Shown here one piece after another: positions 6,624 through 36,265 of a DNA stretch of 36,265 nt (its first letter is position 1; each line of letters begins with the position of its first letter). Origin of the DNA: an uncultured Clostridia bacterium (GTDB taxonomy: Bacteria; Bacillota; Clostridia; Christensenellales; UBA1242); contig CATKXS010000013.1 in the NCBI GenBank assembly GCA_949841045.1, positions 1-36,265 of the forward strand. The letters are read 5' to 3'. The notes below the pieces were generated by a model, which was not told the DNA's origin, searched no databases, and saw only the letters and a program-made list of their open reading frames with translations. The translations under genes were made by a program, and so were the position numbers.

Positions 6624-6785
6624 GTTCGGCGGATAATCCGCAGGAACAAAACTAAACTTAAACTTGTTTGCATGTCTTACGAAAGTGGGCGGATAATCCG
6701 CACGATAGAAAGTGGGTAACCCACGGAACGCAGTAAACCTAAATTTTCAATTTTCCCTACGATAGAAAGTGGGTAACCCACACTA
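6624..6785. repeat. Palindromic repeat cluster A
   Basis: Four 13-base odd palindromes: GCGGATAATCCGC at 6629-6641 and 6689-6701, GTGGGTAACCCAC at 6712-6724 and 6769-6781. Members of each pair are 60 and 57 bases apart. The GTGGG copies are preceded by ACGATAGAAA, and the 6712 copy is followed by GGAACGC; read on the minus strand this is GTTCC-[GTGGG TTA CCCAC]-TTTCTATCG. The last palindrome ends one base from the stop codon of the gene at 6783. No coding capacity is seen in 6587-6782. Confidence 0.85.
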
Positions 6786-7127
6786 GAATTGTAAAACTAG
6801 TTGTTTTGAGATAAAGCCATACGCAATCAAGGCAACAACCATAATGTAGAAAGCGATTGCCGTGATACCATTAATTCTATGCCAAGGGTTACCCACCTTA
6901 ATGTCTTGAAGGAAGCTGTTGGCAGAAAATATACTTGCAATGCAGTAAACAATGACAATAATGCAAAGCCATTCATTTATGACTCTTAAATAATAGATTG
7001 CAACACACGCAATAGCAACAAGACAAGCAAGTATTCCGACAATTCTTCTAGTCATCATCTTGACTTTAAGATAACTTGCCTCTCTTTGTCTATATGTCAA
7101 TGGCACGCCACTAGATTTTGATTTCAT
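6783..7127 (-). CDS. Small membrane protein, three predicted spans, unknown function
   Basis: The 114-residue product has a basic N-terminus (residues 1-28, rich in Lys, Arg and Ser) and three hydrophobic segments at about 29-47, 51-69 and 86-108, with a loop NSFLQDIKVGNPWHRIN between the second and third. I do not recognise the family. The ATG at 7127 is preceded by AGAGGGG with five bases spacing. It ends with the sequence CAATTCTAG, immediately followed by a palindrome of the repeat family (gene sense GTGGG TTA CCCAC, then TTTCTATCG). It stands alone between two repeat clusters, separated from the PflX-like gene by 271 bases. Confidence 0.75.
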   Translation of the reverse strand: MKSKSSGVPLTYRQREASYLKVKMMTRRIVGILACLVAIACVAIYYLRVINEWLCIIVIVYCIASIFSANSFLQDIKVGNPWHRINGITAIAFYIMVVALIAYGFISKQLVLQF

Positions 7128-7181
7128 ATGCCCCTCTTTTTTATTAGTTTAAATATTTTATTCACCCATGTCAAATGTTTT

Positions 7182-7398
7182 CAAGCCAAATGCTTGGCGA
7201 TTATCGTAAAGTATTGTTTAAATATATTACTTATTACGTTCCCAAACCAAATGTTTGACGGTTATCGTAAACTATTGTTTTAAAATATTACCTATTACGT
7301 TCCCAAGCCAAATGCTTGACGAGCAAACTCAGTTTGTAGGAACGTAATTTGATGTGGAATTTCTGTAAGACTTACGATAATGATGCAAACTAAGTTTG
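7182..7398. repeat. Palindromic repeat cluster B
   Basis: Three direct repeats with a 61-base period carry hairpins CAAGC-CAAAT-GCTTG (7182-7196), CAAAC-CAAAT-GTTTG (7243-7257) and CAAGC-CAAAT-GCTTG (7304-7318). The second and third are preceded by GTTCC; the first two are followed by TTATCGTAAA. An oppositely oriented CAAACTCAGTTTG (7324-7336) with GGAACGTAAT pairs with the third so that ACGTTCC..GGAACGT form an outer inverted repeat. A last copy, CAAACTAAGTTTG (7386-7398), touches the stop codon of the next gene. I see no gene in 7128-7398. Confidence 0.85.
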
Positions 7399-8244
7399 CT
7401 AGAATTGTGGTATAAAATTCTCACTTGCACTTTCGAGTTCTTGAAAATAGCCTTCACTTAAACCCAACTTTTCAGCATGCGATAAAATAAGTTTATACTC
7501 AAGTGGTTTAAGCCCCTCTTTTATTCGTCCTCGAATTGGCGTGAACTGCCCCATTAAACTTACAAAGGGTTTATTTATTTCCTTAGCTATAAATTCAAGC
7601 AGCCTAAGACTGTCTTTTATATGGCCTGGCAAAACCAAATGGCGTATAAGCACTCCTTCAGTTAAAATTCCATCTTTAAATATGTTATTCTTCTTGCAAT
7701 CCTTCATGGCTTTTAAAGCCTCGCTTGCCACCTCAAAATAATTAGGCGCTTTAGCCAAAAGAGATGAAAGTTCGCTTTCATAAAACTTAAAATCAGGCAA
7801 AAACACATCAACTACTTTGGCAAGCTTTTTAATCATCTCCACATTTTCATAACCGCCCGAATTCCAAACTATAGGTATGGGAGAATTAAAATCAGCCAAA
7901 GCCTCAATTAAAAGTGAAGAAAATTGTGTTGGCGTGATTAAATCAATGCTGTCAAACCTTGTCAAATCAAAGCTCTCAAGATAAGCCCTAAACTCCTCAG
8001 CCGAATAACTCTCGCCTTTTCCTATATGCGAAATTTCAAAGTTTTGGCAAAACTCACACCTTAAATTGCAACCAGAAAAAAATATGGCAAGTGCACCTTT
8101 ATTTCCACTTATGCAAGGCTCTTCCCACATAAAATTTTCTAGTGTTTTGGCAACGCGAATTTTATCGCCCTCGCCACAAAACCCCTTTTTAATACTTCTA
8201 TCTATCCCGCATTTGCGAGGACAATCATAACACAATTTTTCCAT
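7399..8244 (-). CDS. PflX-like radical SAM protein (COG1313 type)
   Basis: This 281-residue protein begins with a cysteine cluster C5-x2-C8-P-R-x-C12 and C23, characteristic of the PflX-like 'putative pyruvate formate-lyase activating enzyme' group, followed by the radical SAM cluster CxxxCxxC at C59, C63 and C66 (GCNLRCEFCQN). It should bind a [4Fe-4S] cluster and S-adenosylmethionine; the true substrate of this group is not established. It is the third gene of pflB-pflA-pflX-like, starting 19 bases after the pflA stop. There is no clear ribosome binding site before the ATG at 8244, so expression may rely on coupling with pflA. The stop TAG is immediately followed by a family palindrome (CAAAC TTA GTTTG in gene sense). 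Confidence 0.85.
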   Translation of the reverse strand: MEKLCYDCPRKCGIDRSIKKGFCGEGDKIRVAKTLENFMWEEPCISGNKGALAIFFSGCNLRCEFCQNFEISHIGKGESYSAEEFRAYLESFDLTRFDSIDLITPTQFSSLLIEALADFNSPIPIVWNSGGYENVEMIKKLAKVVDVFLPDFKFYESELSSLLAKAPNYFEVASEALKAMKDCKKNNIFKDGILTEGVLIRHLVLPGHIKDSLRLLEFIAKEINKPFVSLMGQFTPIRGRIKEGLKPLEYKLILSHAEKLGLSEGYFQELESASENFIPQF

Positions 8245-8263
8245 AATTATTTTTCGTTTGAAA

Positions 8264-9082
8264 TTATATTTTTTCTATAAGCTCCTTAAGAAGTGTCTCA
8301 AGACACCTGCATTTTTCTTCGTCCATATTCTCAAGCCCTTCAAGTCGATATTTTATGCCAAGCGTTTTATATTTTATTTCACCTAAATTTTTATATGGCA
8401 AAAGTTCAACTCTTTCAACATTCTTGAGCGGTTTTATAAAATGGGCAAGTTCTTTAATATTTTCTTCATTGTCATTAAGACCTGGCACAATCACCTGTCT
8501 TAGCCACAATTTCACACCCTTTTCTTGGCAAATAGAAAGAAAATTTTTAAAACGCGACATGGGTTGACCTGTCAAATTCTTATAATCCTCTTCTCTCACT
8601 GCTTTTATGTCCAAGATGACAAGGTCGCATAGAGACAAAATCTTTTCGATTTCATCTCTTGGCGAAATTCCTACGCCCGCCGTGTCAAGTACGGTGTTTA
8701 TTCCTTTTTCCCTGCAAAGCGAAAGGCACTCTAATAAGAATTTTGGTTGAAGAAGGGGTTCTCCTCCCGAAAAGGTCACCCCGCCACTCTTGCCAAAATA
8801 GCTTTTATATCTCTCAATTCGTCTAATTAAATCATGGGGCGTAATCGTTTCCCGTCCGCCGTCCAAATTCCAAGTCTCTGGATTGTGACAATACTGGCAG
8901 CGGAGTTGACAGCCCTGTAAGAATACCACATATCTTATTCCTGGTCCGTCCGCCAGCCCCATGCTTTCAACACTACTTATATTCCCCAGCAGTTTTAAAC
9001 TGTTTCTATCGTTAGCATTGTCTAAATTATTAATTCTATCCGTTCCCAGCAGTTTTAAACTGTTTCTATCGTCAAGTTTCAT
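8264..9082 (-). CDS. pflA: Pyruvate formate-lyase activating enzyme with a repeat-derived N-terminal extension
   Basis: Radical SAM activase of 272 residues. Family features are the SVESMGLADGPGIRYVVF opening, the cluster motif C58-x3-C62-x2-C65 followed by HNPETW, and SGGEPLLQ further on. It installs the glycyl radical on PflB, whose gene is 220 bases upstream on the same strand. Normal PflA proteins start only a few residues before the SVES region. Here about 30 extra residues precede it and contain DRNSLKLLG twice (5-13 and 25-33), the translation of two copies of the palindromic repeat at 8985-9075. The ATG at 9082 has a good ribosome binding sequence (TTTGGAG, six bases spacing) which itself lies in repeat unit 2. 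No better internal start is visible, so the extension is probably translated. Confidence 0.93.
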   Translation of the reverse strand: MKLDDRNSLKLLGTDRINNLDNANDRNSLKLLGNISSVESMGLADGPGIRYVVFLQGCQLRCQYCHNPETWNLDGGRETITPHDLIRRIERYKSYFGKSGGVTFSGGEPLLQPKFLLECLSLCREKGINTVLDTAGVGISPRDEIEKILSLCDLVILDIKAVREEDYKNLTGQPMSRFKNFLSICQEKGVKLWLRQVIVPGLNDNEENIKELAHFIKPLKNVERVELLPYKNLGEIKYKTLGIKYRLEGLENMDEEKCRCLETLLKELIEKI

Positions 9083-9302
9083 TCAAACTCCAAATTCTAT
9101 CCGTTCCAGCCTTAGGCTGTTTCTATCGTCAAGTTTCATTCAAACTCAAATTTCTGTGTGTTCCCAGCCTTAGGCTGTTATTATCGTTAAGTTTTATTCA
9201 AACTCAAATTTCTGTGTGTTCCCAGCATTATGCTGTTTCTATCGTTAGCATTATCTAAATTATTAATTCTATCTGTTCCAGCATTATAGCAGGCTAAGCC
9301 TG
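8985..9302. repeat. Palindromic repeat array C (five units plus one inverted)
   Basis: Direct repeats of 57-61 bases with palindromes CAGTTTTAAACTG (8990-9002, 9050-9062), CAGCCTTAGGCTG (9107-9119, 9165-9177) and CAGCATTATGCTG (9223-9235). Each is preceded by TTCC, mostly GTTCC, and followed by TT(T/A)(C/T)TATCG or close variants. Two different spacers alternate: units 1 and 5 share an AT-rich one (TTAGCATT..TCTAAATTATTAATTC), units 2-4 carry one containing TTTCATTCAAACTC or its variant, which on the minus strand encodes a Shine-Dalgarno and ATG. A final CAGGCTAAGCCTG (9290-9302) touches the pflB stop. The two palindromic base pairs inside CAG..CTG vary in a compensated way. Confidence 0.9.
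9083..9139 (-). CDS. Possible 18-residue leader peptide upstream of pflA, created by repeat unit 3
   Basis: The ATG at 9139 starts MKLDDRNSLRLERIEFGV and stops at TGA (9085-9083), which directly abuts the pflA ATG (TGA-ATG). Its first nine residues match those of PflA because the translation start is part of the repeated unit. The preceding TTTGAG is a weaker ribosome binding sequence than that of pflA. Whether it is translated is unknown; it could be a by-product of the duplication. Confidence 0.35.
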   Translation of the reverse strand: MKLDDRNSLRLERIEFGV

Positions 9303-11549
9303 TTAAAGTTTTTCGTGGAAAGTTCTTGCGATAACTTCCTCTTGATGAGCACGAGAAAGTTTATTAAAGTTGACTGCATAACCAGAAACACGAATTGTAA
9401 GATTTGGATATTTCTCTGGATTGTTCATTGCGTCAATAAGTTTTTCTCTATCAAGAACGTTTACGTTGAGGTGTTGTGCACCGCGAGTAAAATAACCGTC
9501 AAGCATAGATACAAGGTTATCCTGTCTTGATTCCATATCTTTTCCAAGTGAGTTTGGAATGATTGAGAAGGTATTTGAAACACCGTCTTGACAGCAACCA
9601 CAATATGGAATTTTTGCAACTGAGTTTAATGAAGCAAGTGCTCCACATGCATCTCTTCCATGCATTGGATTTGCACCTGGTGCAAAAGCCTGACCTGCCA
9701 CGCGTCCATCTGGAGTTGCGCCAGTCTTTTTGCCATACATAACATTTGATGTAATGGTAAGTGCAGAAAGAGTATGATGAGCATTTCTATAAAGTTTGTT
9801 TTTCTCAAGCGCTTTGATAAAATGCTCAACAAGTTCAACAGCAAGACTGTCTACCCTGTCGTCATCATTGCCATATTTAGGGAAATCGCCCTCAACCTTA
9901 AAGTCAACAGCAAGACCTTCCTCATTTCTAATAGGTTTAACTTTAGCATACTTAATTGCAGAAAGTGAATCTGTCGCAACAGAAAGTCCTGCCATACCAA
10001 ACGCCATCATTCTATCAACGTGAGTGTCGTGAAGGGCCATTTGTCCAGCCTCATATGCATATTTGTCGTGCATAAAGTGGATTATGTTTAAAGCGTCAAC
10101 ATAGGTCTTTGCAACCTTGTCAAGTACTTCAAAATATCTCTTTTTAACGTCCTCAAATTCAAGGACTTCATCTTTGCACTCTTCAATGCCCTCAACAACA
10201 AGTTTACCACTGACTTCATCTCTTCCGCCGTTTATGCTATATAATAGTGATTTTGCGAGGTTGCATCTTGCACCAAAGAATTGCATTTGTTTGCCCACTT
10301 TCATTGCAGATACGCAACATGCGATTGCATAATCGTGACCATAGACTGGCGACATAACATCATCACTTTCATATTGAATTGAATCTGTCAAGATTGAAAT
10401 CTTTGCACAGAACCTCTTGAAATTTTCTGGAAGCCTTGTTGACCAAAGCACAGTAAGGTTTGGTTCTGGACTTGAATCAAGATTGATAAGGCTATGCAAG
10501 AATCTGAAAGAGTTTTTGGTTACAAGGCTTCGCTTGTCGTCAAGCATACCGCCAATTGATTCGGTAACCCAAGTAGGGTCGCCACCAAATATTTCATCAT
10601 AGTCTGGTGTTCTAAGATGTCTTACAAGGCGAAGTTTGATTATGAACTGGTCAACAAGTTCTTGTGCGCTTTCCTCATCTATTACTCCCCCTCTTAAATC
10701 TCTCTCAAGATAAATATCAAGGAAAGTTGAAACACGTCCAAGACTCATTGCCGCGCCATTGTTCTCTTTGACAGAAGCAAGGTAAGCAAAGTATGTCCAC
10801 TGGAAGGCCTCATGAGCATTGTTTGCAGGCAGAGAAATATCATAACCATATTTTGAAGCCATTGACTTAATTTTTTCAAGAGCTCTAAGTTGCTCAGACA
10901 CCTCTTCTCTAAGTCTGATTTTTTCTTCACTGTCCACCTTTAAAAGTTCGTCTGAAAGTAAATCTTTTTTCTTTTCTTCTATAAGCCTATCTATTCCATA
11001 AAGAGCGACTCGTCTATAATCGCCTATAATTCTACCTCTGCCATATGCGTCTGGAAGACCAGTAATAAGCCCTGCTGACCTAGCGCGTCTTATATCAGGT
11101 GTATATGCATCAAAAACGCCGTCATTGTGAGTCTTTCTCACCATCTGTTTGAAAAGGTTTATAGTCCCCTCATCAAGCTTTTTGCCGTACGCCCCAAGCG
11201 CATTTTCAACCATTCTTATACCACCAAAAGGATTTACAATTCTCTTGAGTGGTTTGTCTGATTGTAGACCAACAACAACTTCGTTTTCCTTATCAATATA
11301 TCCAGCTGGGAAATTGTCAATTCCAGACAAATGTTCAAGGTCAACGTCTAAAAGATGAACCTTTCTCTCCTCTTTTAAAAGTTCTTCGCATTTAGCCCAA
11401 ACTTTGCCAGTCTTTTCGCTTTTGCCCTTCAAAAATGTTTCGTCACCTGTGTATTCAGTATAGTTTTCATCAATAAAGCCAGAAACGTCAATATTCTCCT
11501 TCCAATTTTCTCCTTTAAAACCTTTCCAGCATTCTAAATTTTTTTCCAT
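9303..11549 (-). CDS. pflB: Pyruvate formate-lyase (formate C-acetyltransferase)
   Basis: A 748-residue glycyl radical enzyme, close to the usual 750-760. The active-site cysteine pair is C411-C412 in [14 protein letters not shown] and the radical glycine is G723 in RVSGYAVNF near the C-terminus. It converts pyruvate and CoA to acetyl-CoA and formate under anaerobic conditions. The ATG at 11549 has an ideal AGGAGG five bases upstream. The activase pflA and a PflX-like radical SAM gene follow. The TAA stop is directly followed by the palindrome CAGGC TTA GCCTG (gene sense) at the edge of repeat array C. The activase lies 220 bases downstream across that array. Confidence 0.98.
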
Positions 11550-11560
11550 AATTTCCTCCT

Positions 11561-11578
11561 AGTTACACTTTAGTAACT
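11561..11578. promoter_or_regulatory. Inverted repeat in the pflB leader
   Basis: AGTTAC-6-GTAACT ends directly upstream of the pflB AGGAGG box. It could form a hairpin in the 5' leader that affects ribosome access, or be a protein-binding site. Confidence 0.45.
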
Positions 11579-11635
11579 TTCTTAGTTTGTCCTATTTTCT
11601 TTGTTTTGATTATGTTTTTGTTTAACATGTTTAAA

Positions 11636-11663
11636 ATTTTATCACAAAACAAAATTTTATCAA
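11636..11663 (-). promoter_or_regulatory. pflB: Promoter of pflB
   Basis: Minus strand TTGATA (11663-11658), 16-base spacer, TAAAAT (11641-11636), about 87 bases before the ATG. A 12-base direct repeat AAAATTTTATCA occurs at 11633-11644 and 11651-11662, covering both boxes; it may reflect base composition or an operator. Confidence 0.5.
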
Positions 11664-11715
11664 AATAAATTTACGGCCTTTAATGTATTTAATAAAATTT
11701 ATAATACTTTTTTAT

Positions 11716-11744
11716 TTGACAAATAATAAAATTTTCAATAAAGT
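11716..11744 (+). promoter_or_regulatory. Likely promoter of the flavin reductase gene
   Basis: Perfect TTGACA at 11716-11721; at 17-base spacing the -10 is a weak TAAAGT (11739-11744). The ribosome binding sequence GGAGGG at 11755-11760 precedes the ATG at 11766. Confidence 0.4.
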
Positions 11745-11765
11745 TAAGTTGTATGGAGGGAAATA

Positions 11766-13853
11766 ATGGATAAACAATTTGAACCACTTTTTACGCCTTG
11801 GAAAATTGGCAATGTGGAAATTAAAAACAGAATAGTACTCTGTCCAATGGGTGGGACTTCACTCTTTGGCTGGATGGAAAAACATCATTTTGATAAGGAC
11901 TCGGCAGATTTCTTTATGGACCTTGCTAAAAATAATGTAGGTCTTATCATTCCTGGCATTGCTCCCCTTAAAAATCTCATGGGCGGGGCTTGGCTATATA
12001 AAAGTAAAAAAGCATTCAAACAACTTAAAGAATATATGGTTGAATTTCACAAGACTGGTGCAAAGATGTTTATTCAACTTACTGCTGGCTTTGGAAGGAG
12101 TTTTTCTATTCCAAACAACATGGTGCCAATGCTTAAAAGTAAGGCTCTTGCAAGTTTAATAAAACCTATATTTGATATTCAATATCTCTGCGCAAGTCCA
12201 TCTAAGCTCCCGTCTCGTTGGGCTGAGGGCGTGCTTTGTAGGGCTATAACCAAAAAAGAAATTAAAAATATAATAGATGGCTTTGCAAAAACAGCTAAAT
12301 TATGTAAAGACGCTGGCGTTGACGGCGTGGAGATTCATGCAGTACATGAAGGCTACCTCATCGACCAATTTACAACCTCTTACACAAATCAACGTGAAGA
12401 TGAATATGGTGGAAGTTTTGAAAACCGCTTCCGCTTCCCTGTCGAGATAGTAAAGGCAATCAAAGCCGAATGCGGACAGGATTATCCAGTATCCCTTCGC
12501 TACTCTGTTGTAAGTAAGACAAAAGGGTTCTGCGAGGGCGCGCTTCCAGGCGAAAAGTATACAGAAGTTGGACGAAACATGGAAGAGAGTGAAAAAGCCG
12601 CAAAATATCTCGAAGAGGCTGGTTATGATATGCTCGACGCCGACAATGGAACATACGATGCTTGGTACTGGGCTCACCCACCAATGTATATGCCTAAAAA
12701 CTGCAATCTTGAAGATGTTGCACACATACGCAAGTTCATTAATATCCCTGTTGTATGCGCAGGAAGAATGGAGCCTGACGTTGCAGCAAAAGCAATTGCA
12801 AAGGGCGAGATTGACGCTATGGGCGTAGCAAGACAATTCCTCACCGACACTCACTGGGTGACCAAGCTCATTGAAGACAGGCTAGAAGATATTAAACCTT
12901 GCATTTGCTGTCATAACGCATGCCTTGCAATGAGTCATTATAAAGGTGTTGCAAATGCCTGCTCAATGTCAGACTCAATCCACATGTCACGTTGCGCGCT
13001 TAACCCTCAAACTATGGACGGAGGCAAGTACGATTACACCCCTGCCAAAAAGCCAAAGAATATTGCAATTATAGGTGGCGGTATTGGTGGAATGGAATGT
13101 GCTATCGTGCTTAAAAATCGTGGACATAAAGTGACAATATATGAAAAGACAGACAAACTAGGCGGAATCTTCAACGCAGCAGCCGCTCCATCATTCAAAG
13201 AAAAAGATAGAGCACTTCTCAAGTGGTATGAACGCCAAATGCGACTACTTAACATTGACATCAAGTTCAATAACGAAATAACTGACCTCTCAGAGATTAA
13301 AGCCGATGAATATATCATAGCAACTGGCGCCAAGCCAAGAACCCTTAAACTCAAAGGCTATGAAAGAGCAATCGAGGCAACAGATTATCTTTACGGCGCT
13401 GAGGTTGGCGAAAATGTAGTTATAATCGGTGGCGGTCTTGCAGGCTGTGAAATCGCATACGATTTATATTTGAAAGGCAAAAAACCAACAATTATTGAAG
13501 CGCAAAATGACCTCATGATTTCAAATGGACTTTGCCTTGCAAACTCATCCTTCCTTAGAGATTTCTTTAAAACAAATAATGTCCCTGTTTATCTTGAAAG
13601 CTATTGCGAGGAAATCAAAGAGGGAAGCGTGATAATTGCAACAAAAGATAAAGATAAAAAATCAAAGACCGACACAACTTCAAACGACAATAAAAAGGAA
13701 ATCAAGGCTGACAGCGTAATCCTTTCAATAGGTTATAACCCTGCCCCTCTTACTAAAAAATCAGCGCATGTTCATATTGTTGGTGACGCGCTCAGCGTTG
13801 GCAACCTCAGAACAGTAATCTGGCGAGCCTGGGACATTTCAACTTCTCTCTAA
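11766..13853 (+). CDS. NADH:flavin oxidoreductase, 2,4-dienoyl-CoA reductase/enoate reductase type
   Basis: A 695-residue protein with the layout of FadH-like enzymes: an Old Yellow Enzyme TIM barrel (about 1-360, starting FEPLFTPWKIGNVEIKNRIV), an Fe-S binding cysteine region (C379-x2-C382-x3-C386, then C399 and C410-ALNP), and a two-dinucleotide-fold part with IAIIGGGIGGMECA (FAD) and VVIIGGGLAGCEIA (NAD(P)H). Such enzymes reduce activated C=C bonds using FMN, FAD and a [4Fe-4S] cluster; the group includes dienoyl-CoA, cinnamate and bile-acid reductases, and the sequence alone does not fix the substrate. The gap before the last cysteine is longer than in FadH. It is divergent from pflB and may serve as an electron sink in fermentation. 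Start has GGAGGG with five bases spacing. Confidence 0.9.
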   Translation: MDKQFEPLFTPWKIGNVEIKNRIVLCPMGGTSLFGWMEKHHFDKDSADFFMDLAKNNVGLIIPGIAPLKNLMGGAWLYKSKKAFKQLKEYMVEFHKTGAKMFIQLTAGFGRSFSIPNNMVPMLKSKALASLIKPIFDIQYLCASPSKLPSRWAEGVLCRAITKKEIKNIIDGFAKTAKLCKDAGVDGVEIHAVHEGYLIDQFTTSYTNQREDEYGGSFENRFRFPVEIVKAIKAECGQDYPVSLRYSVVSKTKGFCEGALPGEKYTEVGRNMEESEKAAKYLEEAGYDMLDADNGTYDAWYWAHPPMYMPKNCNLEDVAHIRKFINIPVVCAGRMEPDVAAKAIAKGEIDAMGVARQFLTDTHWVTKLIEDRLEDIKPCICCHNACLAMSHYKGVANACSMSDSIHMSRCALNPQTMDGGKYDYTPAKKPKNIAIIGGGIGGMECAIVLKNRGHKVTIYEKTDKLGGIFNAAAAPSFKEKDRALLKWYERQMRLLNIDIKFNNEITDLSEIKADEYIIATGAKPRTLKLKGYERAIEATDYLYGAEVGENVVIIGGGLAGCEIAYDLYLKGKKPTIIEAQNDLMISNGLCLANSSFLRDFFKTNNVPVYLESYCEEIKEGSVIIATKDKDKKSKTDTTSNDNKKEIKADSVILSIGYNPAPLTKKSAHVHIVGDALSVGNLRTVIWRAWDISTSL

Positions 13854-13854
13854 A

Positions 13855-13865
13855 CCCTTTAAGGG
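13855..13865 (+). repeat. Short palindrome one base after a stop codon
   Basis: CCCT-TTA-AGGG begins one base after the TAA of the flavin reductase and is followed by CTTTCT. The arrangement (stop, one base, hairpin with TTA centre) matches the family copies at other genes, though the stem is only four pairs. Confidence 0.5.
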
Positions 13866-13953
13866 CTTTCTGAAAAGGAAATTTGATAATCTTTAAATAT
13901 TGACCAATGAAAAATCAATTGTGAATACAAAAAATCAAGCTCTATGATTTATA

Positions 13954-13987
13954 AAAAAAGACGTCTAAATTAAGAACGTCTTTTTTT
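13954..13987. terminator. Bidirectional terminator between convergent genes
   Basis: AAAAAAAGACGT/ACGTCTTTTTTT around an 11-base loop. It can end the flavin reductase transcript (plus) and the HTH gene transcript (minus). The remaining bases 13866-13953 hold no recognisable feature. Confidence 0.85.
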
Positions 13988-14022
13988 AGCAAATAATCAT
14001 GCAAAATTACTTTAACAATTAA

Positions 14023-14594: not shown

Positions 14595-14602
14595 TATAAT
14601 CC

Positions 14603-17561: not shown

Positions 17562-17583
17562 GGTGCGTTACGCACCTTTTTTT
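17562..17583 (+). terminator. Terminator after coaB, built on a family palindrome
   Basis: AGGTGCG-TTA-CGCACCT followed by seven or more T. The core GTGCG TTA CGCAC (17563-17575) has the same 13-base N5-TTA-N5' form as the intergenic repeats, here with a real T-tract. The 5' arm includes the last base of the stop codon. Confidence 0.85.
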
Positions 17584-17823
17584 AAGAACGCAAGAACAAC
17601 ATGAGATATATCAAATGTTTTCTTATTTTTATTTTTTTTCGTTATGAAAGGTGCATAATTCACTCAAAACTCAAACAAAGTGAGCATAATGTGGCTAAGC
17701 CACACACAGTTATAAAAAGTGCCTAAGCCGCAACGTACATTATGCATCATTAGCCCACAAAATTTAACGCAGTTATAAAAAGTGCCTAAGGCACACGCAG
17801 TGAACAATTTGTGCATAATGCAC
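17563..17823. repeat. Palindromic repeat cluster D between convergent genes
   Basis: Palindromes GTGCGTTACGCAC (17563-17575), GTGGCTAAGCCAC (17691-17703), GTGCCTAAGGCAC (17782-17794) and GTGCATAATGCAC (17811-17823), with imperfect relatives at 17651-17663, 17719-17731 and 17735-17747. The copies at 17719 and 17782 are 63 bases apart and share the upstream AGTTATAAAAAGTGCC. The right flank ACGCAGTGAAC resembles ACGCAGTAAAC in cluster A. The outer copies sit one base from the stop codons of coaB and the EamA gene. No gene is seen here. Confidence 0.8.
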
Positions 17824-27779: not shown

Positions 27780-27790
27780 TTTATTTCCCC

Positions 27791-28865: not shown

Positions 28866-29818
28866 AAGAAAAGCTTGATAATAAAATCAATCAAATTGAA
28901 GAAGTAATTGAAGTCAATAATTTAACAAAAGATTATGGCGAAGGACGAGGCATTTTCAACATCACTTTCTCTCTTCACAAAGGTGAGACTCTCGGCTTTG
29001 TAGGTGCTAATGGAGCTGGCAAAACAACTACCCTTCGCAACATTATGGGCTTTTTAAAGCCAGATGGCGGAAGTGTAAAAATTCACGGCCTTGATTCTTG
29101 GGAAGATAGTGAAAAAACAAAAAAATACATAGGCTATGTTCCTGGCGAAATTGCTTTTCCAGACCTTAAAAGTGGAACAGTGTTTTTAAAATCGCAAGCT
29201 GAATTTTTAAATGTCACTGACATGACTAAAGCAAATGAGATTATTGAAAAGTTACAACTTGACCCCACTGCAAACCTTAAACGAATGAGTAAAGGAATGA
29301 AGCAAAAAACCGCACTAGTCGAGGCCCTTTTTAGTGACCCAGAGATAATAATTTTAGATGAACCAACCACCGGTCTTGACCCGCTTATGAGAGTGGCATT
29401 TTTGGAGTTGATAAAAAAAGAAAAAGAGGCTGGTAAGTCTATCATAATAAGCTCGCATCTATATGAAGAGCTTGAAAAAGTCTGCGACCGCGTTGCTCTT
29501 ATTGATTGCGGGAAGATAGTAAATATTATTGATATGAATGAACTTCACAATAGAGATTGGGCTGATTTTAAGATTGAATTTTATGATAAAAAGGACTATA
29601 AAGATTTTAATAAACTCAGATATAAAATCATACGAAAACAGCCTGAATATAATCAAGTTACAGTAAACATAGAAAAGAAAAACATTCCAAATCTTTTTAA
29701 AGACCTCACAATGTTCAATGTGAAATTTATTTCTGAAATTAAATTTACGCTTGAAAAACACTTTAATGAGGTTATTAGTAACTTAAAAACCAAAAAGGAG
29801 GAAAAAAATGATAAGTAA
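28862..29818 (+). CDS. ABC-2 type ATP-binding protein, second subunit
   Basis: 318 residues; paralog of the preceding gene with Walker A GANGAGKTT, signature MSKGMKQKTALV and Walker B IIILDEPTTGLD. Both ATPases are catalytically complete. GGAGG precedes the ATG inside the preceding gene. Its last eleven bases overlap the permease gene, whose ribosome binding site lies in its KKEEK-coding end. Confidence 0.92.
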   Translation: MKEKLDNKINQIEEVIEVNNLTKDYGEGRGIFNITFSLHKGETLGFVGANGAGKTTTLRNIMGFLKPDGGSVKIHGLDSWEDSEKTKKYIGYVPGEIAFPDLKSGTVFLKSQAEFLNVTDMTKANEIIEKLQLDPTANLKRMSKGMKQKTALVEALFSDPEIIILDEPTTGLDPLMRVAFLELIKKEKEAGKSIIISSHLYEELEKVCDRVALIDCGKIVNIIDMNELHNRDWADFKIEFYDKKDYKDFNKLRYKIIRKQPEYNQVTVNIEKKNIPNLFKDLTMFNVKFISEIKFTLEKHFNEVISNLKTKKEEKNDK

Positions 29819-31409
29819 ACCATTATTTAAACAGTCCTGCAAAGCCAACATAGGAATTTGGTCATTTGTAACCCTTATCACCTGCTTTATGCTTGCTATC
29901 ATTATTGCAGTACTGGGGAATTTAAATGTAGGAAGCATTCGCGATTCTATGGTTGACATGTTTGTAACCGATGCCATTGAATCCACGACGCAAAAACAAT
30001 CAATGACATATTATAACATTACCGAAAATGCTCTTACAACCTATGAATCACAACGAGTAAGCCTTAATTATCTTTTAAATCAAACTCTCTCTGATGAGCA
30101 AAAGAGCCAAATAATTGGCGCCTATAATAGCCTGGTAGAAAATGGAAAAAGTGATAATGAGGCAAGAGAAATTTTACTTTTTGGCAAAGAGGAAAATGAA
30201 AAGCTTGCAATAAACACTCTTATCACCTACTACCTCGCACAAGGCGAAAATTATACTCAAGCTGATATAAACTATTTCGTTCTTCGCTCTATTGAAGAGG
30301 AAATATATAATTCGCTTGTTGAAAGCGAGGGTGAAATGATTGCACAAGGCACAAAGGAGATTATTTCTCAAGCCATATCAGATTTTACCGAGTCGGGCTC
30401 CGATAATGCTTCCGATTTTGCAACTTTCTATATTCCACAAACTTTAAAAAAGATTTTAATTACCCAAAGTTTTGACTATCAAGACAGAACACTCTCAATA
30501 AAAGATTATTTCACTGAAGAAAAACTTGGCGATATTTCCCTTTCTTCAATTATATCCTATAAGGCTCAACTTGACGTAAAAGAAAAAGAGCTTAGAGAAA
30601 AAATTAGCACTGAAAATCCAACCTTTACTCAAGAACAGATAGATGAAGAAGTGGATAAAGAGCTTCAAGTTTACAAAGCCGAGCTTATTCCTTCACTTTC
30701 ATCAAGCATTCTTGACGACCTTCCAAAAGATGTCGCTGACGCACTCACCGAACTCGGCAGTCTTGACATATCAAGTTTAGTAATCGGCTCTATGTTCTTC
30801 CGCATGGCTGGTATTCTCCTTCCTATTGTCTATATAATCATGGCTTCAAACAACCTTATGGCATCTCAGGTAGACAGCGGGTCAATGGCATACGTGCTTT
30901 CAACCCCAACAAAAAGACGAACCGTTTCAATCACTCAAATGCTTTTCCTCGTCGGCTCACTATTTGCGATGTTTGTATGCACTACTATTGTAGGCCTTGT
31001 ATCCCTTGCCATTGTCAACTCAAGTGCCATTAGTATAGGCTATGTGGATATGGTGCTTTTCAATCTTGGTGCCTTCGTTGCAATGTTTGCAATTTCTGGA
31101 ATTTGCTTCCTTGCTTCAAGCTGGTTTAATAGAAGCAAACTTTCAATGTCAATTGGAGGAGGCTTGTCAATGTTCTTCCTCGTAACAACAATATTAGGTT
31201 TATTCGGCTCAAAAGTAATTCCTTCTGCAATGCGAATTGACGCTATGAACTACTTTAATTATTTCTCTATTATTTCTCTTTACGATTGTGAATCAATAAT
31301 GTCAGGCTCTCTCACCTTCCTTTGGAAGCTTGCAATACTGCTCGGGATAGGGATTGTAACTTACATAATTGCAATTTTCAAATTTAAGAAAAAAGACTTA
31401 CCTCTATAA
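29808..31409 (+). CDS. ABC-2 transporter permease with a large external domain
   Basis: 533 residues. One membrane span at about 19-42, then a long hydrophilic part (45-320, including SLSDEQKSQ-like helices rich in Glu, Ser and Asn; predicted outside), then about five spans between 328 and 525. This plan matches the permease of two-ATPase ABC-2 exporters in Bacillota, often linked to antimicrobial-compound resistance. Substrate unknown. AAGGAGG is seven bases upstream of the ATG. A terminator follows. Confidence 0.88.
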   Translation: MISKPLFKQSCKANIGIWSFVTLITCFMLAIIIAVLGNLNVGSIRDSMVDMFVTDAIESTTQKQSMTYYNITENALTTYESQRVSLNYLLNQTLSDEQKSQIIGAYNSLVENGKSDNEAREILLFGKEENEKLAINTLITYYLAQGENYTQADINYFVLRSIEEEIYNSLVESEGEMIAQGTKEIISQAISDFTESGSDNASDFATFYIPQTLKKILITQSFDYQDRTLSIKDYFTEEKLGDISLSSIISYKAQLDVKEKELREKISTENPTFTQEQIDEEVDKELQVYKAELIPSLSSSILDDLPKDVADALTELGSLDISSLVIGSMFFRMAGILLPIVYIIMASNNLMASQVDSGSMAYVLSTPTKRRTVSITQMLFLVGSLFAMFVCTTIVGLVSLAIVNSSAISIGYVDMVLFNLGAFVAMFAISGICFLASSWFNRSKLSMSIGGGLSMFFLVTTILGLFGSKVIPSAMRIDAMNYFNYFSIISLYDCESIMSGSLTFLWKLAILLGIGIVTYIIAIFKFKKKDLPL

Positions 31410-31458
31410 ATAATATTTTCATAGTATAGCCACCTAAGATTTAATCGTCATTCTAACT

Positions 31459-31492
31459 TAAAAGCGAGCTTTAGTTTAAGCCCGCTTTTTTG
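31459..31492 (+). terminator. Terminator of the ABC-2 operon
   Basis: AAAAGCGAGCTT/AAGCCCGCTTTT (one mismatch) around a TAGTTT loop, then TTTT. Confidence 0.8.
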
Positions 31493-31525
31493 TTTTTATC
31501 AAAAATTTTACATTTTTCGCCAAAA

Positions 31526-33109
31526 TTATGAAAAATCATCTTGATTTTTGCTTATTTTTGCAGTTTTGTCTGCAAAAAACTTTCCGATTGTCAATTTGTA
31601 GTATTTTATGGTAAGCGGAAATGATGTCACTAAGTATACAGCCATGCCCAAAATAACAGCTAGAGCAAGGCCTAAAAATCCTCCAATGAGAGAGAGGAAA
31701 ATCTTAACCACCATGTACATTATAAAGGCTGAAAGTAGTGGCAAAACTATATCAAAAAATGGAAATTTTATAAGTTTGGAAAGCTTAATCAAAATGCATA
31801 TTGACACAACAAGTGCTAAAGTAATATTTGAAATTGCTATTGAAAAAATAGAAATCTCTTTAAGTGGAGCAGTTATAAATAATATCACTATTTTACCTAT
31901 TCCGCCTAAAATACTAAAAATAAGCGAATAGGTAAAATATCCATTTGCCTGCAAAAGTGAAAGTAAAAATTGCATTATTGCAGTTAAAATTATTGAAATT
32001 CCGCTTAAAAGTGTTAGTTGAAGGGCAATTTTGAGATAATTATTTATAATTTTTGGATATATAAGCGGATACAGTACTCCTGAAACAGACATAATTCCTA
32101 GCACAAGCGGAAGTAGAATAAACCACATTGCAAGGAATGCTTTTTTTATCATTTTTTTCTGACCCTCTATATCACCTTGTGTTGCAAGGAAGGCTAGGTT
32201 TGGAAGGAGAGACACGGCAACTGCCAAAGAAATTATAAGTGGGAAATTTAGTATCGCTCCTACTATTCCAGTTTGAAGCCCATAGAGCGCTGTTGCGTTT
32301 TCATGACTAATGCCTGCTCTCATCAAAAGAGTTATAATAAATAGTGCTTCAACAGCATGTGAAAGTGGCAAAACCACACCACCAAATGTTAAGGGCAAGG
32401 AGGCTGAAAAGAACTCTCTTTTCCCCTCTTTATTGAAATCGTATCGCCCATTCTTGCTAGCACTCCAAAAAAGATATAAAAATGCAAATATTTCGCTTAT
32501 CAAAATTCCTAAAAAAGCTCCAAACACTCCTCGCTCAACACTATGACTTCCAAACAGATATGCAAAAATGAGCCCAAAGGCAAATTTTGTAATCTGTTCG
32601 ATTATCTGGCTTACTGCCGTTGGCGTCATATCGCTGTATCCTTGCAATAGTCCTCTTGTAACTCCAACTAATCCACCTAAAGGCAGAATAACTGCGACTA
32701 TTAAATAGCAGTTGGCACCCTTTCCAATTCCTTGCACTGAAGCAATTGGCGATGAAAAAAGAACAAACATTAAGGAAAAAAGAACACTAAGCGAAAGGGT
32801 AAATATGAGTCCATACCTAAGATATGAACCTATTTTTTTATAGTCGCCTCTTGCTCTAGCACTGGACACTAGTTTTGAAAGTGCATTTGTCACCCCGCCC
32901 GAAACAAAAACCAAAGCAAGCGAGTAAAGAGACATGACCATTTGAAATATGCCAATTCCTTCTATGCCAATAATGTTTGTAAGAGGAAGTCTAAAAAGTC
33001 CACCAAAGAACTTGCAAATAATTCCGCTCAAGATGAGGACAAAAGCGCCTTTTCCTATACTATTTTTCATAATTCTAGCATGCCTAATTGATTTAAAAGT
33101 ATTCGCCAT
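31526..33109 (-). CDS. SpoVB/MATE-like polysaccharide or lipid II flippase family protein
   Basis: 527 residues with about 14 membrane spans and the N-terminal phrase RLPLTNIIGIEGIGIFQMVMSLY plus VTRGLLQGYSDMTPTAVSQIIEQ-like loop (positions 32577-32660), typical of the SpoVB/YtgP/MurJ-like group of the MOP exporter superfamily. These flip lipid-linked cell-wall or capsule precursors, or take part in spore cortex formation. Which of these applies cannot be read from sequence. ATG at 33109 has AAAGG four bases upstream; an internal ATG at 33067 has none. Confidence 0.88.
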   Translation of the reverse strand: MANTFKSIRHARIMKNSIGKGAFVLILSGIICKFFGGLFRLPLTNIIGIEGIGIFQMVMSLYSLALVFVSGGVTNALSKLVSSARARGDYKKIGSYLRYGLIFTLSLSVLFSLMFVLFSSPIASVQGIGKGANCYLIVAVILPLGGLVGVTRGLLQGYSDMTPTAVSQIIEQITKFAFGLIFAYLFGSHSVERGVFGAFLGILISEIFAFLYLFWSASKNGRYDFNKEGKREFFSASLPLTFGGVVLPLSHAVEALFIITLLMRAGISHENATALYGLQTGIVGAILNFPLIISLAVAVSLLPNLAFLATQGDIEGQKKMIKKAFLAMWFILLPLVLGIMSVSGVLYPLIYPKIINNYLKIALQLTLLSGISIILTAIMQFLLSLLQANGYFTYSLIFSILGGIGKIVILFITAPLKEISIFSIAISNITLALVVSICILIKLSKLIKFPFFDIVLPLLSAFIMYMVVKIFLSLIGGFLGLALAVILGMAVYLVTSFPLTIKYYKLTIGKFFADKTAKISKNQDDFS

Positions 33110-33123
33110 ATACCTTTAAAAAC

Positions 33124-33152
33124 TTGACAAATAGAGCTTTTGTAATTAAAAT
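33124..33152 (+). promoter_or_regulatory. Promoter of the pnuC-like gene
   Basis: Perfect TTGACA (33124-33129), spacer 17, TAAAAT (33147-33152), followed by the inverted repeat GATTAT-TT-ATAATC (33161-33174) at the expected transcription start: a candidate operator. Confidence 0.7.
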
Positions 33153-33206
33153 AGGTGATGGATTATTTATAATCGACTATATGATTAAATTATACGGAAT
33201 GAAAAA

Positions 33207-34139
33207 ATGAGCAAAATTAAAGAAAATTTTAAGAAAATTTGGCTAAAAACAAAAGAATTTGCCAAAAAATTGTGGAATTATTACACGCTTTACGAAAAAC
33301 TGTGGTTTTTGACTATTACTATTCTTGCATTTGTTTTTGCATTTGTATTCCCAGAAGAGGACATTGGCGGAATAAATGGCAAAATCATTATGACATTATA
33401 TCTTGTTGACATTTTATCAAACATACTATGCGAGCTTCTCATATCAAAACAAAGCAAGTGGAATTTCCTTGTATCTCTAGTTGTTGAATTTACCGAAATC
33501 GCCATCTGTATTGTGTGCGCATATAGATTTGCAACTATGGCAGCAACAATATTCTTCTGGATTCCAATTGATATAATAAGCTTCTTTGTATGGCATCGTC
33601 ACCCCGACCGCAAAGAGCAAGAACTTACAGAAGTTCGTAGGCTTAAAGGTTGGCAGGAAGTTTTGGTTATCGCAGGAATTGTCGTTTGGACGGTTGGAGT
33701 TGGCTACCTCCTAACGCTAATCGACATAGAAGGCGGAATTCTATCAAACTCACCTGTGCTCGAAAAAGTTGTCTGTTATATTGATGCCTGTTGCAGTGCT
33801 GTCGGAATTGCAAATGGACTCTTCATTCTGTTTAGATACCGTGAACAATGGATTGCCTGGTACATTGCAACTTTTCTTGAAATTGCAATGAATATTATCG
33901 CTGGCCAATGGGTGCTTTTAGTCCTTAAGGCCGGATACCTAACCAACACAACCTATGGATATATAAAATGGACCAAATACATAAAGTCTCACTCGAATGA
34001 AAATAAGAATAAAAAAGACGAAAATCAAGTTATTGACGATACTCAAATTCAAGATATTGACAACATCAAAGAAGAAAAAGTAGAACAAGAAAAGGACGCC
34101 CAAAATGATGAGAATCTGCCTTCTGAAACACAAAATTAG
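33207..34139 (+). CDS. PnuC-family transporter (nicotinamide riboside or similar vitamin)
   Basis: 310 residues with an amphipathic basic start, about seven membrane spans and the C-terminal PnuC signature RYREQWIAWYIATFLEIAMN followed by TYGYIKW. The family imports nicotinamide riboside, or other vitamins such as riboflavin or thiamine. Unusual is a highly charged hydrophilic tail from about 253 to 310, rich in Lys, Glu, Asp and Asn, absent from normal PnuC. The ribosome binding sequence (CGGAATG) is weak. Confidence 0.82.
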   Translation: MSKIKENFKKIWLKTKEFAKKLWNYYTLYEKLWFLTITILAFVFAFVFPEEDIGGINGKIIMTLYLVDILSNILCELLISKQSKWNFLVSLVVEFTEIAICIVCAYRFATMAATIFFWIPIDIISFFVWHRHPDRKEQELTEVRRLKGWQEVLVIAGIVVWTVGVGYLLTLIDIEGGILSNSPVLEKVVCYIDACCSAVGIANGLFILFRYREQWIAWYIATFLEIAMNIIAGQWVLLVLKAGYLTNTTYGYIKWTKYIKSHSNENKNKKDENQVIDDTQIQDIDNIKEEKVEQEKDAQNDENLPSETQN

Positions 34140-34170
34140 TTAAAATTTCATAAAAAACGTTAAAAAACAC

Positions 34171-34200
34171 AAAAAAATGCAATAAATATTGCATTTTTTT
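34171..34200. terminator. Bidirectional terminator
   Basis: AAAAAAATGCAAT/ATTGCATTTTTTT around an AAAT loop between the pnuC-like gene and the convergent S51 gene. Confidence 0.85.
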
Positions 34201-34201
34201 A

Positions 34202-34948
34202 TTAATTATTTTTAAAAACTTTACTTTCCTCGTTTTCGCAAATACGAACCACTTCCCCTTTTTCAATTTTATAAACCTCGCCATATAATCTACATTCTTT
34301 ATCATCGACAAGGATATAACTTCCATTTGGTAGAGCATAGAAAGTTTGATTTTGGCTATCTGGTAAATAATACTTTTTAAGCAAGTTAACATTCTTAGGA
34401 CAATATAGATTACCACTCTCCTCTACAAAATGAGGAATAATTACAAAATCATAAAATCCAAGTCCGCTCAAATATTTCTTATTGAATATTACCTCTCTCC
34501 TATTCTCTGGATAATTATAACCAATTTCACCAAGATTCATCGCTCCAGCGCTTACGCCTAAGACAACAGCATTTGATTCTAGCAAAAGTTCTTTCAAACC
34601 AATTTTCTTAAAAAACTTAAGTTGACATTTTAATTTACCGCCCGCAAGAAAAATAAGGTCGGCATTCTTGACAAGTGACTCTGCCTGATTATAATTTTCC
34701 CCGTCAAGCACATCGCAATTCTTAAATGGTAATCCTGCCTCTTTCAAAGCTTCAAAAATCATATTAGCACTTTTTAAGTGAGACTCATGATATTTAGGGT
34801 TATTACAAATAAATAGAAAATTATCACATTTTTTAAGAGATTTTGTTAAATTATCTCTAAATGTGTTGCTTTTATCTATTTCCTTTCTAATTGTTTCTCC
34901 ATTTTCGCGTATGCTTTTTACGCTTTCAGCCAGTAAAAATATTTTCAT
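34202..34948 (-). CDS. S51-family peptidase (dipeptidase E-like)
   Basis: 248 residues with the family's nucleophile motif GVSAGAMNL (Ser133), an LAGG turn at 101-104 (D..IFLAGG), and a His in IIPHFVEE. S51 peptidases cleave N-terminal Asp-X dipeptides; cyanophycinases are relatives, and the substrate here is not fixed by the sequence. AGGAGG overlaps the stop codon of the upstream AAA-CYTH gene, with an 8-base gap, so the two are likely coupled. Confidence 0.85.
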   Translation of the reverse strand: MKIFLLAESVKSIRENGETIRKEIDKSNTFRDNLTKSLKKCDNFLFICNNPKYHESHLKSANMIFEALKEAGLPFKNCDVLDGENYNQAESLVKNADLIFLAGGKLKCQLKFFKKIGLKELLLESNAVVLGVSAGAMNLGEIGYNYPENRREVIFNKKYLSGLGFYDFVIIPHFVEESGNLYCPKNVNLLKKYYLPDSQNQTFYALPNGSYILVDDKECRLYGEVYKIEKGEVVRICENEESKVFKNN

Positions 34949-34956
34949 CTTCCCTC

Positions 34957-36066
34957 CTAATTCAAATCACTTGGCACACTTTGCGCAAGTGCAAAATTTG
35001 AAAATACTTTCTCTTCAGTTACTTCTCTGACAACTTTAATAAAGTCTGGGATTTCAATTTTGTCGTTTTCGCTTGTAAGTTCAATTTCCATAATAGCTCT
35101 ATTTTTCGCAAAAGGATAAATATCAATCTCAAAATATTGATTTTTATAAACAAGACAATATCTATCTTTGCGAATTTGTTTTAAGTTTGTATTCGCTTCT
35201 TCAAGAAGAGTTAAATAGCGTTTTTGAGAGATTTTTTCTTCAAATTCTACCCTCTTTATTGGCGAAATACTACGCTTGGTGGTAACAGTGTAGATATAAC
35301 TTCCATTTGCGCCTCTTTGCCTAACACGCCGTTCATCACCTTTTTCAGAATTAAGATAAGTTTGTATTATATTCACCTTAGTACAATTTGCAAGACTTTC
35401 TAGATAATTTAAGTCTGGTTTTTCAATTAAAAACTTGCGTTCTATCTCAAACGGAGAAGGCTCACCAAGAAGCGCGCAAATCTCACGCAATAGCCTCTTG
35501 ATTTTTGTTTCAAAATCGGTTGAGTTGTCGATTACTCTAAAATGAGGATGCCCAGTCCAGCATGATATAATTTTATCATCTTGCACTCTCGCCTCGTCAA
35601 TACTCTCTTTTCTTGCAAGATTATTTGCAGTTGTATATGCACTTTCCGCCCCTTTTGCACAACTTACGAGATGAAATACCCCATCATAACTATCTCGGCG
35701 CTCAAGCATATCAATTCCAGTTTCTTCAAGAAGTTCATCAAATTCCCTATCTGTAACAAACCCTTTGCAGTCCATAAGTCCACGGTCACATACAAGCAAT
35801 ATCTTTTCATCAGGAAGCAGTTTGCAAGCTTCTTCATAGAAATTTTCTTTAAGTTGTTGAAAAAGCATAATATTCTTTTCAAACAACTTGCCATCATTAT
35901 TAAACGCGGGTAAACTAAAGCCATCAAGGATAAGTTCTGTCGCCGTTTCGCTAACTGTGACAACCTTATATCCAATCTTGCTTATTTCTTTTTCAATACT
36001 GCTAAGACCTGTGCTTTTTCCACCACACGGCCCACCAGTAAGTACAATTTTAACTATTTTTTTCAT
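34957..36066 (-). CDS. AAA_28-type P-loop ATPase fused to a CYTH domain
   Basis: 369 residues. Residues 1 to about 190 are a P-loop domain of kinase/NadR-like type with Walker A TGGPCGGKST (10-19) and LLVCDRGLMD (Walker B-like). Residues 205-360 are a CYTH triphosphate-tunnel domain with EIERK at 207-211 and further Arg/Lys/Glu-rich strands (RRVRQRG, IMEIEL). CYTH enzymes hydrolyse or act on triphosphates, so a role in nucleotide or polyphosphate chemistry is inferred. Ribosome binding sequence AGGTG before the ATG at 36066. First gene of a pair with the S51 peptidase. Confidence 0.85.
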   Translation of the reverse strand: MKKIVKIVLTGGPCGGKSTGLSSIEKEISKIGYKVVTVSETATELILDGFSLPAFNNDGKLFEKNIMLFQQLKENFYEEACKLLPDEKILLVCDRGLMDCKGFVTDREFDELLEETGIDMLERRDSYDGVFHLVSCAKGAESAYTTANNLARKESIDEARVQDDKIISCWTGHPHFRVIDNSTDFETKIKRLLREICALLGEPSPFEIERKFLIEKPDLNYLESLANCTKVNIIQTYLNSEKGDERRVRQRGANGSYIYTVTTKRSISPIKRVEFEEKISQKRYLTLLEEANTNLKQIRKDRYCLVYKNQYFEIDIYPFAKNRAIMEIELTSENDKIEIPDFIKVVREVTEEKVFSNFALAQSVPSDLN

Positions 36067-36127
36067 TTTTCACCTAATTTTTTGTTTATTTTACACAACT
36101 TAATATTAACTTGACACTATATTGATA

Positions 36128-36265
36128 CAAACTAAGTTTTCCGCAGCAGACGAGGCCTGACTTTGCGATTTTTTTTGAAAGATACTGATGCAAACTAAGT
36201 TTGTTGGAACGAATTGGTTATAATATTAAGACTTTGCTAAACGATACTGATGCAAACTAAGTTTG
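36128..36265. repeat. Palindromic repeat cluster E at the window edge
   Basis: CAAACTAAGTTTT (36128-36140, last base degenerate), CAAACTAAGTTTG at 36191-36203 and 36253-36265, spaced 63 and 62 bases. The last two are preceded by GATACTGATG; the middle one is followed by TTGGAACGAATTGG. The same 13-base palindrome occurs 29 kb away at 7386-7398. The window ends exactly at the last copy, so the array may continue. Region 36067-36127 should hold the promoter of the AAA-CYTH gene; I found only a weak TAAAAT. Confidence 0.85.

Follow-up and report, generated by a model that had tools for sequence, protein, structure and literature searches.

Arrays of tagged hairpin cassettes between genes of an uncultured Clostridia bacterium, read as REP-like mosaic elements

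Several described families of short palindromic repeats bear on the elements discussed here, and are cited from partial descriptions. In the CGTC-tagged repetitive extragenic palindromic (REP) elements, units with different stems, loops and tails mostly form head-to-head dimers; stems are 8-9 long with A-T in the first two positions, loops 4-5, the tail is near CCA, and the tag is CGTC (or TGTC/CCTC) (PMC3733652). These REPs are extragenic, lie mostly downstream of genes and have no dedicated transposase; the word Firmicutes is absent from the main text of that paper (PMC3733652). According to the same partial source, Rickettsia palindromic elements lie in-frame inside open reading frames (ORFs). 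In the Neisseria intergenic mosaic elements (NIMEs), as partly described, dRS3 is a repeat of ~20 bp whose outer arms, ATTCCC/GGGAAT, are constant and whose N8 interior varies, and the RS elements measure 30-160 bp (PMC3898611). We describe here arrays of short palindromes from an uncultured Clostridia bacterium (genome G000, 1.16 Mb, 34 contigs), found in a stretch of 36,265 nucleotides (the window) which is one of these contigs, C13. The original prediction, made from the letters of the window, was of five clusters of tandem units in which GTTCC and TATCG flank palindromes with changing stems.

The clusters are read here, with moderate confidence, as REP-like intergenic mosaic elements in which tagged hairpins would be moved or copied as folded strands, by a presumed mover, with tandem change of the arrays thereafter. 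Perfect N5-TTA/TAA-N5' 13-mers number 24 in the window, whereas 60 first-order Markov simulations gave 4.1 on average and 9 at most; 17 of the 24 fall in the five clusters, which bears out the predicted positions. The GTTCC...TATCG frame, with units ~57-63 bases apart, is found in four clusters: 6624-6785 (minus strand), 7182-7398 (plus, partly inverted), 8985-9302 (plus) and 36128-36265 (minus). It had been predicted for 17563-17823 too, but there the palindromes have other flanks, with neither GTTCC nor TATCG on either strand; that at 17563-17575, followed by C and seven T, resembles an intrinsic terminator. Direct reading also confirms the CAAAT-type loop of cluster B. The clusters are made up as follows.

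6629..6781, minus strand: cluster A, palindromes 6629-6641, 6689-6701 (GCGGATAATCCGC), 6712-6724 and 6769-6781 (GTGGGTAACCCAC)
Flanks of cluster A, minus strand: GTTCC 6643-6647 and 6725-6729; TATCG 6703-6707 and 6760-6764
7182..7318, plus strand: cluster B, plus part, CAAGCCAAATGCTTG 7182-7196, CAAACCAAATGTTTG 7243-7257, CAAGCCAAATGCTTG 7304-7318
Flanks of this part: TATCG at 7202 and 7263; GTTCC at 7238 and 7299
7324..7398, minus strand: cluster B, inverted part, CAAACTCAGTTTG 7324-7336, CAAACTAAGTTTG 7386-7398
Flanks of this part, minus strand: GTTCC 7339-7343, TATCG 7375-7379
8990..9302, plus strand: cluster C, between a pflB-like and a pflA-like gene, 13-nt palindromes at 8990, 9050, 9107, 9165, 9223 and 9290
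TATCG...GTTCC spacer units of cluster C, 40-41 nt: 9007-9046, 9067-9107, 9124-9164, 9182-9222, 9240-9279
17563..17823, no strand assigned: cluster D, palindromes 17563-17575 (then C and T7), 17691-17703, 17782-17794 and 17811-17823
36191..36265, minus strand: cluster E, truncated by the contig end, CAAACTAAGTTTG 36191-36203 and 36253-36265
Flanks of cluster E, minus strand: GTTCC 36206-36210, TATCG 36242-36246

A covariance model was built from 24 hand-picked units. Their stem cells are paired in 85.9% of cases against 56.9% in shuffles, the covariation score is 0.654 against 0.187, with slid controls much lower, and two-sided changes occur in all six stem pairs; since the units were chosen by eye and MAFFT left GTTCC unaligned in some rows, these values illustrate the pattern and are not an unbiased test of it. 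They support the predicted family with varying stems, kept pairing and kept flanks, closest to REPs and bacterial interspersed mosaic elements (BIMEs). When folded as single-stranded DNA, eight hairpin-holding stretches reach z values of -1.5 to -5.9; the ninth stretch, 36206-36240, leaves the palindrome outside and gives no fold. No Rfam family reached its gathering score in the window.

The anatomy of the unit is clearest in two further genomes, G032 and G065, where 98 units were anchored on the spacer alone, no palindrome being required. A palindrome of ~15 nt is followed by a 3-nt tail and, after two more bases, by TATCG or a close variant of it; a stretch of 30 nt then leads to GGTCC. After register correction, at least five of six pairs form in 43/51 units of G032 and 43/47 of G065. 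Among palindrome types seen at least twice (12 of the 98 units, of once-seen types, being left out), 41/43 and 42/43 units bear the tail that is usual for their type, 83/86 together. Palindrome and own tail thus form an 18-nt cassette in both genomes, drawn from a small alphabet: CAAACTTAGTTTG-ATC, CAACCTTAGGTTG-ACC, CAGCATTATGCTG-ACA, CAGCCTTACGCTG-GCG and few others. G000 draws on a wider alphabet, in which ATC, ACG and GCG tails occur alongside a second group with T tails. Overall, the cassette comprises a palindrome of ~13-15 nt and a tail of ~3 nt, which most palindrome types have to themselves. The TATCG...GTTCC spacer, ~40 nt, is nearly constant in length (interior of 30-31 nt in 34/44 units of G000; 30 nt in 43/60 of G032 and 42/69 of G065), with mean pairwise identities of 0.47, 0.70 and 0.71 in G000, G032 and G065. 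The tail can also pair with its own 3' arm, in the part close to the loop: over nine types, T-tailed ones left out, 18/27 positions are Watson-Crick pairs against 10.5 in permutations (p ~0.0007), or 22 against 16.7 with wobble (p ~0.007), a rule found after inspection of the data.

It had been predicted that pairing is preserved while the letters are not. This holds between palindrome types, but within a type the letters are conserved, also across species and families. Because the cassettes are conserved with their own tails and the same spacer can bear different cassettes, a small alphabet of cassettes is preferred here to the earlier view that the hairpin rather than its letters is kept.

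At L041 and L148 (G029) the TATCG/GTTCC frame is the same and the palindromes have an even, AG-centred middle (TGTGCAGGCACA, TGTCCAGGGACA). At L083, L085 and L123 (G032/G065) cassettes are repeatedly separated by a longer module, which has the palindrome GGTGTC-NNN-GACACC (GTCCGAGTTTGTTAAAGGAAAGAGG...).

Exchange of whole cassettes can be followed within and between genomes. Unit pairs with spacers at least 85% identical, which are not independent of one another, number 4 in G000, 77 in G032 and 59 in G065. Two-sided stem differences in them reach 4, 96 and 60, where independent change at the rate of the spacer would give 0.11, 4.3 and 1.7; one-sided differences number 0, 49 and 18, counts lowered because poorly paired cores were left out. 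New combinations of cassette and spacer are seen directly: identical 30-nt spacers bear different palindromes in four of seven pairs in G065 (0/1 in G032). Between orthologous arrays, whose aligned flanks are mostly 93-98% identical, six of 13 aligned pairs differ by pieces of the size of a cassette, a spacer or a unit.

L086/L125: 25 nt
L074/L121: 36 nt, and a 19-nt difference which creates a hybrid palindrome
L139/L120: 17 and 25 nt
L078/L131: 81 nt
L070/L128: 121 nt
L072/L118: 188 nt

Other pairs are less clear-cut (many pieces differ in L085/L123 and in L084/L122, and 417 nt in L077/L135), and some alignment gaps fall in ordinary intergenic DNA. Of the syntenic presence and absence that had been proposed for checking, gains and losses of modules between orthologous arrays were thus found, but no empty site at the nucleotide level between pflB and pflA. 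At the 29 loci of that test the gap was 24-179 nt in seven, 360 nt in L175 and 658-703 nt, with other sequence, in three; the remaining 18 gave no answer, partly since the script read one strand. Given the tail-locked cassettes, the identical spacers with different palindromes, the array differences of whole cassettes or units and the letter identity across families described below, the apparently compensatory stems largely represent an exchanged alphabet of hairpins.

Genome-wide, the literal pattern has 11 matches in G000 against 2 for the pattern read backward, and the covariance search yields 46 matches at E<0.01 and 69 at E<=1, both including the 24 training units, which match by construction; the original expectation of flanks shared outside the clusters is confirmed. 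A survey of 61 genomes (37 of the genus, own included, and 24 of other families) gave matches at E<=0.1 in eight: 50 in G000, 46 in G032, 5 in G010, one in G029 (5.7e-4), and single matches in G008, G009, G028 (E 0.01-0.09) and G038, which are within chance over 61 genomes. At E<=1, G065 has 57 matches and G066 five. In a sample of 297 genomes of the order, searched with stricter filters, three matched at E<=0.001: the own genome, G213 of the same genus and G299 of another family; laxer filters at E<=0.1 gave 12 matches in G213 and 55 in G299. An exact cassette pattern found 25 stretches in named genome contigs, from three assemblies, CALVNW (G032), CAMLSW (G065) and CAKNIB (G066), and one such pattern matched the own genome alone among 391 genomes of the class, a draw without G032, G065, G213 and G299. 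Fewer than half of the genus genomes sampled, and a single sampled genome from another family, are carriers (G000, G032, G065, G213 and G299, with G010 and G029 as weak and G008 as doubtful ones). At L149 of G008, similar palindromes have GTCCG-like flanks (E 0.088, within chance).

Identical cassettes occur in these distant genomes: letter for letter, CAAGCCTTACGCTTGGCG is shared by G000, G032, G065 and G299, and CAAACCAAATGTTTGACG by G000 and G299. The same plan is found in G299 with TGTCG and with a different right end and spacer. Its stems include CAAGCCTTACGCTTG-GCG, CAAACCAAATGTTTG-ACG and CCAACCAAATGTTGG-ACG, the first two present letter for letter in G000. CCCGAATAA lies at 35-39 nt in 41 of its 77 units and at 64-68 nt in four, owing to two cassettes in tandem; the other 32 lack an exact copy within 90 nt. 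At L221, L223, L225 and L227 of G299, longer palindromic modules (GTCATCCTGAGGCGAAGCCGAAGGATCT; GGGAGCGCAG...CTGCGCTCC types) are interleaved with cassettes and recur there. None of nine counted cassettes was found in 387 kb of 20 genus genomes, the weak carriers G010 and G029 included, nor in 100 kb each of unselected DNA of G000 and G032; the counts at carrier loci are not densities, because these loci were picked for holding arrays. TTA palindromes as such are 1-2 copies above the highest count of 20 simulations in G005, G006 and G011 out of 20 genus genomes (20 kb each, one 7.1 kb). GC-bearing ones show a mild excess in the unselected 100 kb of G000 (7 against 3.2, maximum 6 in 20 simulations) and none in that of G032 (2 against 3.1).

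The position relative to genes was read for 66 arrays of G000, G032 and G065, orthologous pairs being counted twice, with ORFs of 90 aa or more called by a simple script, so that single cases may be wrong. All are extragenic (0/66 inside an ORF). The upstream neighbour is co-oriented for 41, opposite for 20 and absent for five. In 23 of the 41 co-oriented cases the array begins at -30 to +18 nt relative to the stop codon of that gene. In six of these 23 it begins 10-11 nt inside the gene, which puts the stop at a TAG in the first palindrome. One of these genes, which we take to be SecA-like from its motif (L070 2-2257 in G032; L128 in G065), ends in the first palindrome, the C-terminus at L070 being ...GSGKKYKNCCGQT (...CCGQT). 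Two arrays of G000, L054 2188-2399 and L065 2182-2550, begin at the base directly following a tRNA-Leu gene (ARAGORN); within L065 lies a further tRNA-like 3' end (GGCACCA), as if captured. The idea of promoters within the spacers was not retained: promoter-like sites number 1 against 0.9 expected in cluster C and 2 against 0.4 in an array of G065. In the window, one listed frame opens inside an array, ~36 codons ahead of the part that served as conserved query (8974).

8264..9082, minus strand: pflA-like radical S-adenosylmethionine ORF, its listed frame starting within cluster C, start codon putative

On the preferred reading as REP-like mosaic elements, cassettes would have been spread and exchanged as folded single-stranded hairpins. 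The agent might be a structure-recognising nuclease, acting in trans or since lost, or hairpin-provoked replication errors. Arrays would afterwards grow and shrink through tandem duplication and deletion, and copying or recognition of the hairpin itself would keep the short stems paired. The elements themselves may simply be tolerated beside gene ends.

Searches for a mover must be read with the incompleteness of the assemblies in mind. The original prediction had proposed to look for a Y1 HUH or other transposase, and the Y1 link found no support: PF01797 has no match in G000, matches 5/41 genus genomes, and is found in two of eight carriers, both with an in-frame stop. Among nine genomes tested it matched three, G032 (with a stop), G299 (partial, with a stop) and G008 (partial, cut by the contig end). 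The frame in G032 (L114 1501-1857) has one in-frame TAA and no flanking cassettes. Membership in the REP/RAYT system (RAYT, REP-associated tyrosine transposase) was rejected on these counts (5/41 genus genomes, 3/9 tested, none in G000) and is kept as an analogy. A phage or plasmid vector was likewise rejected: neither three cassette patterns sought in viral contigs, nor one window cluster in phage records, nor one G065 array in plasmid records gave a match.

Several observations weigh against the preferred reading. The carriers tested yielded no intact Y1 transposase, enzyme families beyond those named here not having been searched. A reverse transcriptase (PF00078) as copier was rejected, with matches in 10/41 genomes and none in G000 or G032, and so was an excess of tyrosine recombinases (PF00589), of which there are six in G000, ten in G032 and nine in the non-carrier G007. 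The gains and losses observed are of modules inside arrays, with no site cleanly empty of a whole array among them, and over 4 kb the pair L080/L124 is free of indels of at least 6 nt. In G000 the stems are more varied and the T-tailed types have no stem-specific tail. Finally, template switching or selection could also produce two-sided changes.

The last point leads to a possible, if somewhat unlikely, alternative: old tandem repeats without mobility, shaped by slippage, unequal crossing-over and template switching at quasi-palindromes, which would copy arm onto arm and keep pairing without selection. It accords with the differences of about two and three whole units between relatives (121 and 188 nt) and with two-sided changes of a single pair within one array (CAGCTTTAAGCTG/CAGTTTTAAACTG, spacer 97% identical), and template switching is, in the part of the source available, a described origin of multibase compensatory change (PMC8794818). 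It does not, however, easily explain tails that change with the stem, cassettes identical between families, cassette-sized differences of 17-25 nt, or dozens of matches in G000 and G032 with none or few in most sampled genus genomes. Alternatively, the hairpins could be kept at the RNA level, for termination or stability of mRNA 3' ends, with arrays as repeated back-ups; this appears improbable. The co-orientation of the upstream gene for 41 of the 61 arrays that have one, with 23 arrays at its stop codon, would fit, as would the four terminator-like sites of cluster C against 0.1 expected. Yet the upstream gene is on the other strand for 20/61, the G065 array tested has terminator-like sites at chance (1 against 0.8), and a T run follows the hairpin in the T-tailed types but not in the main, ATC-, ACC-, ACA-, GCG- and ACG-tailed cassettes. 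The TTA loop, found in 18/26 terminator-like hairpins with three-base loops from the window and array-bearing stretches of G000 (array units included), occurs in 0/6 of those from 100 kb of G000 not selected for arrays, so that TTA as the general terminator loop of the organism was rejected.

The arrays could also be sites of a palindrome-acting tyrosine recombinase or phage integrase, as dRS3 is the target of the Nf1 prophage in Neisseria, or attC-like sites, which we hold to be very improbable. Modular joining, gain and loss would suit such sites, and tyrosine recombinases are present in G000, G032, G010 and G029, yet also in 40/41 genus genomes. Their number does not track carriage; none of the six integrase matches of G000 lies near a model match (E<=1), five being on contigs without any and the sixth ~65 kb away on C4; and the searches of viral contigs with three cassette patterns, and of phage and plasmid records with one array each, were empty. 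More speculatively, and doubtful in our view, the arrays may form a combinatorial system, in which cassettes of ~18 nt would be recognised by their fold and internal tag pairing and not by sequence, joined by a putative enzyme to spacers of fixed length, some of them circulating between families.

These observations matter beyond the window. Apparent compensatory change in short palindromic repeats can stem from exchange of whole cassettes drawn from a small alphabet, which bears on the use of covariation as evidence of structure. The movement of REP-like hairpins becomes measurable in two close relatives whose flanks are similar but whose arrays differ strongly. What moves such elements is a question posed by the carriers that yielded no intact Y1 transposase, as it is by the CGTC-type REPs.

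It had been stated that no described family has this design, which is too strong in view of the CGTC-REPs and the Neisseria NIME arrays as partly described (PMC3733652, PMC3898611). Like the former, as far as that description goes, the present elements are short palindromes in intergenic DNA that carry an unpaired tag on one side, a 3-nt tail and varied stems, loops and tails; they are extragenic, lie mostly downstream of genes and, within the limits of the searches, have no associated transposase. On the minus strand, cassettes with ACG, GCG or ACA tails begin with CGTC, CGCC or TGTC; those with ATC or ACC tails do not. In contrast to the CGTC-REPs, the tag varies together with the stem (GATG and GGTC occur as well), the stem is ~6 bp, mostly 5-7, with outer pairs mostly C-G and loops mostly of 3 or 5 (98 units of G032 and G065), and units are mostly tandem and co-oriented on a near-constant spacer. 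With the NIMEs (dRS3 and RS), the available part of their description shares intergenic arrays of a palindromic repeat and spacer elements; however, ATTCCC(N8)GGGAAT is absent from the units, read by eye, the arms vary by type, the spacer is ~40 nt, and the PF00589 matches gave no link to an integrase. The Escherichia coli BIMEs and GTAG-REPs, also from a partial description (PMC8266576), similarly have palindromic units with short connecting motifs in varying order and a hairpin plus tag. Unlike in GTAG-REPs and REPtrons as described there, none of 179 units has CTAC in the tail (one further hairpin of G066 reads CCTAC), cassettes do not flank the Y1 locus of G032, and the carriers tested showed no intact Y1 gene. 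The letters of the cassettes have no published description in the literature searched.

As in clustered regularly interspaced short palindromic repeats (CRISPR), repeats are parted by near-constant stretches of ~30 nt, but here the 'repeat' varies and the spacers are mutually related. The Rickettsia palindromic elements are longer. Like them, the present arrays reach into genes, in that some first palindromes appear to supply a stop codon and a pflA-like frame starts in an array; in contrast to them, no array lies inside an ORF. Measured against the partial descriptions of the families compared, the arrays are set apart by stem-specific tails, by interchangeable cassettes on near-constant spacers and by the sharing of cassettes across families.

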